A DNA stretch of 64,000 nucleotides from Oscillospiraceae bacterium (GTDB taxonomy: Bacteria; Bacillota; Clostridia; Oscillospirales; Ruminococcaceae): contig JAGAZJ010000032.1 of the NCBI GenBank assembly GCA_018110925.1, positions 39,234-103,233 of the forward strand, written 5' to 3'. Below are positions 12,402 to 20,684 of this stretch, piece after piece (within the stretch, counting starts at the first letter, position 1; every line of letters begins with the position of its first letter). The translations under genes and the position numbers were made by a program. The notes below the pieces were generated by a model, which was not told the origin of the DNA, searched no databases, and worked only from the letters and a program-made list of their open reading frames with translations.

Positions 12402-12512
12402 GCAGACTCTCTCGTCTGAGAATGCCTGCACCGTTATTGCATATAGATCATTTTATCATGGTGCAACGCCGCCGTGCGTATCACGAAACGGGCACACCAC
12501 AGCAACATATTG
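12402..12512 (-). promoter_or_regulatory. Untranslated leader of rplN
   Basis: About 140 bases of minus-strand leader lie between the promoter and rplN. They contain short alternative pairings: CAGAC (12403-12407) with GTCTG (12414-12418), or TGCAG (12401-12405) with CTGCA (12426-12430); the two cannot form together. A role as a ribosomal protein binding leader is possible but unproven. Confidence 0.35.
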
Positions 12513-12541
12513 ATTTTACCACACAAATCGCCCTTTGTCAA
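12513..12541 (-). promoter_or_regulatory. Promoter in front of rplN
   Basis: On the minus strand, TTGACA, a 17-base spacer, and TAAAAT. This near-consensus vegetative promoter lies in the only large gap inside the ribosomal superoperon and would transcribe rplN to rplQ. Seen in sequence; strength is inferred. Confidence 0.78.
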
Positions 12542-16840: not shown

Positions 16841-17476
16841 TTAAGCCTTCTTAACGCAGTCAACGATAGTAACGATACCGTTCTTAGGACCGGGGATCGC
16901 ACCCTTTACTGCGATAAGATTGTGTTCTGCGTCAACCTTTACGATCTCAAGGTTCTGAACAGTTACCTTTTCAGCGCCCATGTGACCGGGGAGAGCCTTG
17001 CCCTTGAATATTCTCGAAGGCGAGGAGCAAGCACCCATAGAACCTGCTGTTCTTGCAACAGGACCTGTGCCGTGGGTCTCCTTGAGTCTGTGGTTGTTGT
17101 TTCTCTTGATAGTGCCCTGATAGCCCTTACCCTTTGAAGTACCGCTTACATCAACGATGTCGCCTACCTCGAAGGTATCAGCCTTCAGAACGTCGCCTAC
17201 ATTGTAGGACTCTGCATTGTCAAGCCTGAACTCCTTGAGAGTTCTCTTGAGAGCCACATCCGCCTTAGCGAAATGGCCCTTCTGAGGCTTGTTCACGAGC
17301 TTCTCCCTGATATCGCCGAAGCCGCACTGCACTGCGCTGTAACCGTCGTTCTCAACAGTCTTCTTCTGAACGACTACGCAAGGGCCTGCTTCTACGACAG
17401 TAACGGGGATCACTTTGCCCGTTTCATCGAAGATCTGTGTCATACCGATCTTCTTGCCGATGATTGCCTTTGTCAT
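16841..17476 (-). CDS. rplC: 50S ribosomal protein L3
   Basis: A 211-residue L3, an assembly initiator that reaches the peptidyl transferase centre. It starts [20 protein letters not shown] and contains the methylation-loop region [25 protein letters not shown] lies upstream. Second gene of the superoperon. Confidence 0.98.
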
Positions 17477-17551
17477 GGTTTTTCCTCCCTATGGTTATTG
17501 GTCAGCATTGCTGACATTGACCCACAGTTTGTCATCTTTGGGAGATCCGTC

Positions 17552-17866
17552 TTACTTGATCTCCATTACGATGTCAACGCCTGCGGGAAGCTCAAGGCCC
17601 TGAAGAGCCTCGGTCGTCTTGGCTGTAGGTCTCAGAACGTCGATAAGTCTCTTGTGAGTTCTGAGCTCGAACTGCTCACGGCTGTCCTTATACTTGTGTA
17701 CAGCGCGGAGGATAGTAACTATCTCCTTGTCTGTGGGAAGGGGTATGGGACCCGATACCTTTGCGCCGCTTCTCTTAGCAGCGTCAACGATCTTTGCCGC
17801 AGCAGCATCTACGACTGCATGGTCGTAGCCCTTGATCCTGATCCTGATCTTGTTGGTCTCTGCCAT
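17552..17866 (-). CDS. rpsJ: 30S ribosomal protein S10
   Basis: A 104-residue S10, part of the 30S head and the antitermination factor NusE. It starts [20 protein letters not shown]; the start was chosen for the GGAGG 8 bases upstream, and five codons before it there is another in-frame ATG without a ribosome site. It ends DIVMEIK. First gene of the superoperon, about 283 bases downstream of the promoter. Because S10 is NusE, a link to the terminator-like leader is conceivable. Confidence 0.98.
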
Positions 17867-17952
17867 TTTGATTTCCTCCATTATTCGAGGAAGTGCAATA
17901 TATCCTGTCCGAAGGTCTCAACGCATCCGTGTGTGTCGCAGTCCTTACAGAT

Positions 17953-17984
17953 AAAAAACCGCCCAAAACGATGTTTCGAGCAGG
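17953..17984 (-). terminator. Attenuator-like terminator in the S10 leader
   Basis: On the minus strand a stem of 11 pairs with one bulged base (arms CCTGCTCGAAAC and GTTTTGGGCGG, ATC loop) is followed directly by six Ts. It lies inside the untranslated leader, about 87 bases before rpsJ, so it would end transcription before the ribosomal genes unless disrupted. Confidence 0.75.
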
Positions 17985-18149
17985 CACAGACTTACCTTTC
18001 GCACTGTGTGCGACGGTTTAAGCACTGACTGTGCTATATTGCCTTTCGCCCGGTTTAAAATCGGACATACTCTGCGAAAATTCCCCTGCGCACCGCAGGC
18101 AACCTTCCGCTTCATCGCATATCTGCATGACTTCTTATATTGTCACGCA
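17985..18149 (-). ncRNA. Structured leader RNA of the ribosomal superoperon
   Basis: About 165 bases of transcript between the predicted start and the attenuator. It contains three compact hairpins: CCTGCG/CGCAGG (18085-18099), AGCAC/GTGCT (18021-18035) and CGCAC/GTGCG (18000-18012). The segment AAACCGTC on the minus strand (18012-18019) can pair with eight bases of the terminator (17956-17963), including part of its T tract, which would act as an antiterminator. No known riboswitch class was recognised. Structure is drawn by eye; regulation is inferred. Confidence 0.55.
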
Positions 18150-18155
18150 AATGCT

Positions 18156-18184
18156 ATTATAACATATGCGGAGCATATTTTCAA
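18156..18184 (-). promoter_or_regulatory. Promoter of the S10 superoperon
   Basis: On the minus strand TTGAAA, a 17-base spacer and TATAAT. A 9-base inverted repeat flanks the -35: TGCGGAGCA in the spacer (18167-18175) and TGCTCCGCA upstream (18204-18212), which may be a protein-binding site. Confidence 0.85.
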
Positions 18185-18229
18185 GCCATAAAGCGTAGAA
18201 ATTTGCTCCGCACAGATACATTATATAAG

Positions 18230-18745
18230 TCATTTTGCACAAGAACCAAATCTTTTTCTGCCCACGAGGACCTCAAGCGCCAGAACAGCCGCAACAAGGG
18301 GTATGATACCCGTCCTGTTTCCGGTATTCGGATTGCCCGCAGCCTCCTCGGGTCTGGGTATGCTGCCGTCATTGGGTATGACCTTTACGGTGCATACCGT
18401 CTTCACGGGTTCACTCAGCTCGTCTGCTTCAGCCGTTATGTTTATGATGCCGCCCGCATCTATATCCTCATCCCACGCCATCAGGCCTATCTGCTTTTCG
18501 GCAGTCTCTCCGGGAGCAAGCACATCCTGCTCGAATACCGGCTGATCCTCGAAATAGATCTTGAATCCCGAAAGGTCCGTGTCTCCCGTATTCTCCGCAG
18601 TGATACCGACGACCACCTTGTCGCCCACCATCACTTCTGCGTGCGCAGCCTCTGCATCAAGCTTCAGGTCCGCCTCTGCACATACGCTGCATGAGAGCGC
18701 TGCAGTGATAAGAGCAGCCGTTATGAATGATATCCGTTTTTTCAT
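18230..18745 (-). CDS. Sortase-anchored surface protein (NPNTG motif)
   Basis: A 171-residue secreted protein. Residues 1-23 form a signal peptide. The middle (about 30-130) looks like one immunoglobulin-like beta-sandwich of the CARDB/DUF11 kind, with the pattern VGDKVVVGITAENTGDTDLS. The C-terminus carries a cell-wall sorting signal: NPNTG near residue 139, a hydrophobic stretch (IIPLVAAVLALEVLV), and basic RKR. Sortases in Ruminococcus-type bacteria often use NPxTG. It is last in the operon with proS and the DUF4303-like gene, with AAAGGAG ahead of the start. Ligand unknown. Confidence 0.7.
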   Translation of the reverse strand: MKKRISFITAALITAALSCSVCAEADLKLDAEAAHAEVMVGDKVVVGITAENTGDTDLSGFKIYFEDQPVFEQDVLAPGETAEKQIGLMAWDEDIDAGGIINITAEADELSEPVKTVCTVKVIPNDGSIPRPEEAAGNPNTGNRTGIIPLVAAVLALEVLVGRKRFGSCAK

Positions 18746-18756
18746 ATTATGCTCCT

Positions 18757-19215
18757 TTACGCAAAGACTTCCTCGGGAACTTCGTTTGCAAGCAGAGTGT
18801 ATCTCCTGGTCAGCTCTCCGCCGGCACCGTCGGCAAATATGACAACAGGTATGTTCTTGTCGAACCTCTCCCTGATTATGCCGTCTGCGATGAGCTCTCT
18901 AACTGCGGCGGCAGCACATTCAAAATATCCTGTGCGCATATCTTCTCCGGAAAGCCCCTTGAATGAGCTCCATATCTCAACGGAGCCGTCAACTGCCGCA
19001 TCCGAGTTCACCCTTGCGAATTCGGGATGCTTCCAGCCCGATATATCCCACATACTGCCGTTCTTGTCGGCATAATCCTTTGTGTTGTAGCCGACAGCGC
19101 CGTCACTGTCAAAGGTGAGACCCACCGCATACACCTTGTTGTCGTATATCTCGTTTATCTCATCGGATATCCACTTTTTCAGAGCGAATACCAGAGCCTT
19201 GTCGTATTCGTCCAT
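18757..19215 (-). CDS. DUF4303-like protein
   Basis: A 152-residue soluble protein with no signal peptide. It starts MDEYDKALVFALKKWISDEI with a GAGAGG site upstream; the longer frame runs into proS. The order of elements (N-terminal helix, strand with VYAVGLTFDSDGAVGYNT, then a Trp-containing segment W-x-x-x-x-W-K-H-P-E-F, then a C-terminal domain with VPVVIFADGAG) resembles DUF4303, a family often linked to toxin-immunity contexts. No toxin gene is next to it here. The family call is tentative and the function unknown. Confidence 0.5.
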   Translation of the reverse strand: MDEYDKALVFALKKWISDEINEIYDNKVYAVGLTFDSDGAVGYNTKDYADKNGSMWDISGWKHPEFARVNSDAAVDGSVEIWSSFKGLSGEDMRTGYFECAAAAVRELIADGIIRERFDKNIPVVIFADGAGGELTRRYTLLANEVPEEVFA

Positions 19216-19247
19216 ATTGACCTCTCTCCGATCCGGTACACCGGGCA

Positions 19248-20684
19248 TCAATATGCCTTGCCCCAGATGACCATATGCTTTGCGGGCTTGCCGCAGCATA
19301 CGCATACATCCGACAGCTTCTCCTGCTCAAAGGGTATGCATCTTGAACCCACGCCCGTTACTTCCTTGACCTTGTCCTCGCAGGCTTCCTCGCCGCACCA
19401 CATGGCCTTTACAAAGCCGTCGCCGGCTTCGAGCGCCTTGGTTATGCCGTCCATATCCGTGCAGGAGTACGTGCGTCTTTCACGGTTTGCAAGAGCGGCT
19501 TCAAACAGTCCCTTGCGAACCTCTTCCAGCTTTTCCTTCACCGTGTCGGCAATGCCGTCCAGAGATACAAAATCCTTCTGTCTGTTGTGGCGCATAACGG
19601 TCACGCACTGGTTCTTCTCTATATCCTTGGGGCCTATCTCGATGCGGACGGGCACGCCCTTCATCTCATACTCGGCAAACTTCCATCCGGGGCTGTTGTC
19701 GCTGTCGTCTATCTTCACTCTTATGCCTGCCGCACGGAGCGTCTCAGCCACTTCGTTTGCCTTGTCGAGAACGCCCTCCTTGAACTGCTGCACAGGTATG
19801 ATGACCGCCTGTATGGGCGCTACCGCAGGAGGAAGCACAAGGCCGTTGTCGTCGCCGTGGGTCATTATGACCGCACCGATAAGACGCGTTGTAACGCCCC
19901 ATGATGTCTGGTGAGGATATACCTTCTTGTTCTCCTTGTCGGTATACATTATGTCGAATGCCTTTGCGAAGCCGTCGCCGAAGTAGTGTGACGTACCCGC
20001 CTGCAATGCCTTGCCGTCGTGCATGAGAGCCTCTATCGCATATGTTGATACCGCACCTGCAAACTTGTCGCTCTCGGTCTTTCTGCCCTTGACAACAGGC
20101 ATAGCAAGATATTTCTCGCAGAAGTCGGCATAGACATTGAGCATACGCTCTGTCTCTTCGACAGCTTCCTCAGCGGTGGCGTGGATGGTATGGCCCTCCT
20201 GCCAGAGGAATTCTCTCGAACGCAGGAAAGGTCTTGTGGTCTTCTCCCAGCGAACGACAGACACCCACTGATTGTACAGCTTGGGCAGGTCTCTGTATGA
20301 GTGTACTATATTGGCATAATGCTCGCAGAACAGTGTCTCCGATGTGGGGCGCACGCAAAGCCTTTCCTCCAGCTTCTCACTGCCGCCGTGTGTCACCCAT
20401 GCCACCTCGGGCGCAAAGCCCTCAACGTGATCCTTTTCCTTCTCGAGCAGGGATTCGGGGATGAACATGGGCATACATACGTTCTCATGCCCTGTTTCCT
20501 TGAAGATACCGTCAAGTATCCTCTGCATATTCTCCCAGATAGCATAGCCGTAGGGACGGATGACCATACATCCCTTTACGCTCGTGTATTCAACAAGCTC
20601 CGCCTTCTTGCATATATCCGTATACCACTTCGCAAAATCTTCATCCATAGATGTTATGGACTCGACCATTTTTTCCTTAGCCAT
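19248..20684 (-). CDS. proS: Prolyl-tRNA synthetase, eukaryote/archaea type
   Basis: A 478-residue class II synthetase that charges tRNA-Pro. It is the short form without the bacterial editing insertion between motifs 2 and 3. Motif 2 is seen at [17 protein letters not shown], and motif 3 lies further on. The last 80 residues have a small Cys-rich domain (CGEEAC, then [10 protein letters not shown]) that probably binds zinc, and the chain ends in Tyr, both typical of the eukaryote/archaea-type enzymes found in many Clostridia and Bacteroidetes. A separate Ala-tRNA-Pro editing protein may be needed in trans; none is seen here. Confidence 0.96.

Follow-up and report, generated by a model that had tools for sequence, protein, structure and literature searches.

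The S10 operon leader located in the window, i.e., the 64,000-nucleotide stretch of Oscillospiraceae DNA that was analysed here, is best read as a known ribosomal-protein leader equipped with a transcription-attenuation platform, to which an unnamed element common to the S10 and spc operons is added. That the known S10 leader RF03136 works here with a transcription-type expression platform, and that the element behind the terminator probably serves as the target of a trans-acting factor, is a reading we consider reasonably probable. Both the RF03136 motif and the idea of ribosomal-protein attenuation are already known, and what appears to be new here, judged from the literature searched, is a short element 22-24 nt behind the terminator stem, of which the window's genus has a further copy in the spc leader. 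To our knowledge, the control of the largest ribosomal-protein operon has been little tested outside Escherichia coli, and the layout described in the following, in which a known motif is moved upstream and joined by a terminator and an element at near-constant distance, is directly testable in culturable relatives. That the element is present in the spc leader as well may moreover offer a way of studying how two ribosomal operons are coordinated.

All features of the window described here lie on its minus strand, with rpsJ (S10) being the first gene of the operon (open frame, 17552-17866, ATG at 17866). Upstream of it, a promoter-like sequence (18156-18184) was identified by consensus match only, which consists of TTGAAA (18184-18179), a 17-nt spacer and TATAAT (18161-18156) and agrees with the consensus at 11 of 12 positions. 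As promoter-like matches within 17000-19500 were no commoner than in shuffled sequences (2 as compared to 2.4 expected), the S10 promoter is claimed on the basis of its position rather than of the match. With an inferred start point, the leader extends from 18149 to 17867 and thus comprises 283 nt, the predicted fold of which has an energy of -100.7 kcal/mol (z -4.84), which none of 200 shuffles reached. Within this leader, an intrinsic terminator (17953-17983) was identified by folding, whose stem (17983-17959) possesses 11 pairs, five of them G-C, with an energy of -11.8 kcal/mol (z -5.4; none of 200 shuffles as low), and which is followed by TTTTTT reaching to 17953, 87 nt before the rpsJ ATG. 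Terminator-like matches within 17000-19500 number three, with 1.6 expected. Promoter, 283-nt leader and an 11-pair terminator with six Ts 87 nt before rpsJ had all been proposed in the initial annotation and are all present, and so are the hairpins which it had counted as three, but the fold predicts more, namely one at the 5' end, those belonging to RF03136, one that separates the motif from the terminator, the terminator itself and one that covers the ribosome-binding site.

At 18039-18123, upstream of rpsJ, the leader matches RF03136 of Rfam 15, the family of the S10-Clostridia ribosomal-protein leader, and the score of 41.1 bits lies above the gathering cut-off of 35.1 (E 6.1e-5 over 64 kb). 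The initial annotation had guessed at a regulated leader, which was well placed, and its attenuator reading stands insofar as the leader before rpsJ is structured and its intrinsic terminator is conserved; its claim that no equivalent has been described in Clostridia is refuted, since RF03136 is a described S10 leader, and its particular antiterminator is not supported. In the 2020 r-leader paper (PMC7247131), the S10 r-leader of Firmicutes is given as established and as present in numerous Clostridia, and is not taken up any further. Of 197 genomes from the family to which the window belongs, 161 contain the motif above cut-off, as do 13 of 20 from its genus and 48 of 199 from the phylum, and it also matches in the Bacillus subtilis and Lactococcus lactis controls. 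What distinguishes the window from the family as described is what surrounds it: the RF03136 match stops at 18039, leaving the following hairpin (17984-18034), the terminator, the element and the ribosome-binding-site hairpin outside, and the motif is placed upstream of a terminator, whereas among 29 phylum loci it is located immediately before the ribosome-binding site in 24 when judged by eye (23 by a rough pattern). With two further systems comparison is possible by description. According to a review (PMC10931766), the Escherichia coli S10 leader is regulated by L4 and has a Rho-independent terminator within a 5' UTR that is long and structured; the likeness is one in outline (structured 5' UTR, terminator and control of S10), the Escherichia coli type being marked by L4 binding and NusA-dependent termination. 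The rpsJ motif RLC-47-1 (PMC11109978) is likewise from the 5' UTR of rpsJ in a Clostridia family, having been described from three genera of the Peptostreptococcaceae, a family other than that of the window. In the portions of the literature searched, supplements and the Rfam seed alignment being outside this scope, neither the terminator layout nor the element was found described.

Conservation was assessed with the 146 best-scoring RF03136 loci among the matches listed, of which 144 carry rpsJ and two were dropped; the window itself is one of them (L001), and L036 and L146 share an identical leader. The end of the motif was located by pattern in 129 of these 144 leaders, the 15 missed ones being dropped from the terminator count. 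A hairpin of -6 kcal/mol or lower followed by a T run was found between motif and rpsJ in 118 of the 129, as compared to 34-45 in four dinucleotide shuffles, and with a limit of -10 kcal/mol in 103 as compared to 6-15. The terminator is conserved in the leaders of relatives. A terminator call is absent in six leaders (L044, L045, L065, L094, L123 and L141) and merely weak in five more. Two of these, L065 and L094, are short leaders from small genomes that keep RF03136 and the element with no terminator call in between. The hairpin chosen by the scan is not always the one adjoining the element; hairpins of -8 kcal/mol or lower positioned 18-25 nt before the element were found in 98 leaders.

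The element itself, GACACACACGGATGCGTTG, was identified at 17919-17937 by pattern and by conservation in relatives, its consensus being GANACRCNCGGNNNNGUKK. Among the 122 leaders having both a terminator call and an element, the end of the stem and the element are separated by 22-24 nt in 96 and by 18-25 nt in 103. A loose version of the element pattern matches 142 of 144 leaders, with a mean of 7.9 and a largest value of 14 in 20 shuffles, and a strict version matches 105 with none in 20 shuffles. The two leaders outside the loose pattern show, by eye, ACACGCGGAAGCGTGT (L131) and a degenerate ACACCCGACTGCGTTG (L127), and for a further leader (L035) the element position was taken from a downstream match which by eye is not the real copy. 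A second set was drawn from 551 named relatives, the 80 that ranked best by L4 protein being used; their titles are mostly those of Oscillospiraceae, Ruminococcus and Clostridia, and 14 of their leaders are identical to leaders of the first set. It revealed the motif pattern in 76 of 80, the loose element pattern in 73, the strict one in 64 and, not more than 24 nt before the element, a T run in 70. Among the 29 phylum loci, the loose pattern is missing in the 24 in which the motif lies beside the ribosome-binding site and is kept in the other five (L247, L251, L261, L269 and L274). An element model built from 54 copies, one of the window's two among them, matched at E <= 0.01 in 62 of 147 genomes of the order, the window's own genome not being among these; of 30 order-level loci with a model match, 29 have the element before rpsJ and one is a locus without rpsJ. 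The element was also found before rpsJ in two genomes (G017 and G094) which both lack an RF03136 match in a stricter search.

The bare pattern is unspecific. Its strict version gave 124 matches in 100 genomes as compared to 69 for the reversed pattern, and 2 as compared to 3 in the window's own genome; of 20 strict-pattern regions inspected, four are rpsJ leaders, two are rpsQ-rplN gaps and 14 are neither, several of which look, by reading only, like coding frames of elongation factors. The window copies score low in the element model (20.6 bits, E 0.14 and 16.9 bits, E 1.3), and for both reasons the case for the element rests on position and conservation. In the genus, ten model matches outside S10 and spc leaders were inspected, two of them with E > 1, and each of the ten overlaps with an open frame 60 or more codons long; outside these ten are four with E 0.1-1, one of them in the window's own genome, and the rest have E > 1. 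At E <= 1, Rfam gave no match to the element in window positions 17800-18300 or in 20 relatives, where the sole match apart from RF03136 was NsiR1 (L049, 258-314), with 25.2 bits below its cut-off of 39. The element as a conserved hairpin was rejected, as a 5-pair stem through it shows no covariation (80.0% paired as compared to 80.4% in shuffles). The element may resemble Escherichia coli 23S rRNA; mimicry of rRNA at the sequence level was rejected, as neither of the two element patterns matched in four 23S loci of the family with their flanks, a comparison which excludes the window's own rRNA, a 23S search of 20 genus genomes having yielded no 23S match.

A second copy of the element, GATACGCACGGCGGCGTTG, was found by exact pattern match at 12464-12482, where it resides in the rpsQ-rplN gap, i.e., the spc leader, and follows a promoter-like TTGACA-17-TAAAAT (12513-12541; consensus match only) at a distance of 30 nt from the -10 hexamer. 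Both exact matches of the window's genome, 17919-17937 and 12464-12482, thus fall in this superoperon. To compare such gaps, 46 rpsQ-rplN loci were collected, the family part being the best 30 of 87 genomes with S17, and two loci without both genes were dropped. Of the remaining 44 gaps, 17 have a promoter by a set criterion, and among these the element is present in 14, present as a variant in one (L179) and absent from two (L174 and L202), the genome of the latter being devoid of any match to the strict pattern. The 27 gaps without promoter contain it in a single case (L192) and lack it in 26. Within the genus, 13 of 15 gaps possess the element; as 15 of the 17 promoter gaps come from this one genus, L174 included, they are not independent. 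With the element model, the 20 genus genomes gave 25 matches at E < 0.1, which distribute to 11 S10 leaders, 11 spc leaders and three sites inside open frames. As the element is found in the spc leader too, and as spc possesses a promoter of its own in the genus, the element most likely serves as target for a trans-acting factor, and being located behind the decision point as well as on spc RNA, it would probably answer to a factor common to both operons. A more specific proposal is plausible, though we make it tentatively: the element may be the binding site of one trans-acting factor, possibly a ribosomal protein, that coordinates S10 and spc, whereby one copy would suffice where the S10 promoter is shared and a second copy would be employed where spc has its own promoter.

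For the terminator decision, a candidate antiterminator strand was identified by complementarity within the 3' hairpin of RF03136, namely AAACCG at 18051-18056, which may pair with CGGTTT at 17956-17961. When folded up to the U tract, the window RNA pairs AAACC (18056-18052) with GGUUU. In 55 of 98 leaders, CGG forms the end of the terminator's 3' arm, immediately followed by the T run, and at least 6 complementary nt between this arm and the third hairpin of RF03136 were found in 56 of 98, as compared to 6% with shuffled motif strands; the commonest shared words are AAACC, AAACCGG, AAACCG and GAACCG. The best upstream partner of the arm ends between -10 and +9 nt from the motif end (AAACCGGGCGA) in 35 of 88 leaders. 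One class suggests covariation, as GAACC occurs together with GGUUC in 16 of 20 leaders but in 1 of 68 of the AAACC class, which corresponds to about two changes on the tree and carries no statistical weight. The suggested mechanism assumes that the RNA starts near 18149 and that first RF03136, then a variable hairpin and then the terminator fold. When little ribosomal protein is present, AAACC(GG) in the third hairpin of RF03136 would be free to pair with the last GG of the terminator and the first Us, and RNA polymerase would read through. In excess, a ribosomal protein of the operon would bind RF03136 and keep the third hairpin closed, whereby the terminator could form and rpsJ and the downstream genes would be switched off. 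Transcripts that read through would contain the conserved element approximately 23 nt behind the terminator stem, which would most likely be recognised by a trans-acting factor, probably a ribosomal protein, that acts on both transcripts and, as the site lies behind the terminator, would do so at the level of translation, elongation or stability.

The terminator may alternatively be a constitutive damper with a fixed degree of read-through, all regulation then taking place at translation via the ribosome-binding-site hairpin, the element or both. We consider this rather unlikely, yet it accounts for the outcome of a swap test, in which the motif and terminator of the same leader pair no better (-10.34 kcal/mol) than swapped ones (-10.27 kcal/mol), the own combination being better in only 48 of 88. 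The phylum loci point in the same direction, as RF03136 adjoining the ribosome-binding site, by eye, in 24 of 29 means that the motif can work at translation. In the window, the ribosome-binding site of rpsJ is covered by a hairpin TTCCTC/GAGGAA (17873-17892; -8.5 kcal/mol, z -3.1, reached by two of 200 shuffles), and in relatives an upstream C-rich stretch is complementary to this site with a mean of -9.8 kcal/mol as compared to -7.9 for shuffled sequences; in 31 of 136 leaders it equals or comes close to the best of 30 shuffles. Conservation of this hairpin is only suggestive, as a leader's own complement pairs no better than one taken from another leader (the own one being better in 72 of 136), and both the CGG kept beside the Us in 55 of 98 terminators and the near-constant distance between terminator and element speak against a damper. 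Similarly doubtful is that the element is a site of mRNA processing or stability instead of a regulator's target, for which it speaks that the element is positioned in two 5' UTRs and that, with no covarying stem, it is sequence rather than structure that is kept. A general nuclease site would, however, not explain why the stronger genus matches of the element model lie in S10 and spc leaders only.

The switch proposed in the initial annotation, in which AAACCGTC (18019-18012) pairs with GGCGGTTT (17963-17956) and thereby breaks the terminator, is improbable. The complementarity as such exists, comprising 8 pairs with one G-U, and as an isolated duplex it is, with -11.4 kcal/mol, stronger than AAACCG/CGGUUU (-7.8 kcal/mol), which has only 6 pairs. 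Enforcing it, however, costs 10.0 kcal/mol relative to the best fold of the RNA ending at the U tract, as compared to 2.9 kcal/mol for the 6-pair RF03136 alternative, and GGCGGTTT was not found among the terminator ends listed for 11 relatives of the genus. Moreover, AAACCGTC is contained in a hairpin of its own, which the fold places between motif and terminator at 17984-18034 (GCACAG/CTGTGC, ACC/GGT and CGCAC/GTGCG). In 16 of the 23 leaders prepared for comparison, the inner stem of its counterpart has both strands altered in 2-7 of 16 rows, while 3-5 of 16 contain breaks or gaps in it, the window row being among the latter for three of the five pairs, hence its conservation is only partial. 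Considering the complementarity of the arm, the pairing of AAACC with GGUUU in the fold, the lower cost of enforcement and the hairpin engaging AAACCGTC, we infer that AAACC(GG) within RF03136 is the better antiterminator candidate. Leader-peptide attenuation via the 56-codon frame present in the window at 18115-17945 is highly improbable and was rejected, as in the 125 of 144 leaders with a located start the frame varies from 2 to 104 codons and a ribosome-binding-site-like sequence precedes it in only two, so that neither is conserved. A further open frame (18230-18745) sits just upstream of the S10 promoter, the product of which is presumably small and secreted-looking, as its C-terminal region contains a stretch similar to NPNTG and a hydrophobic tail.
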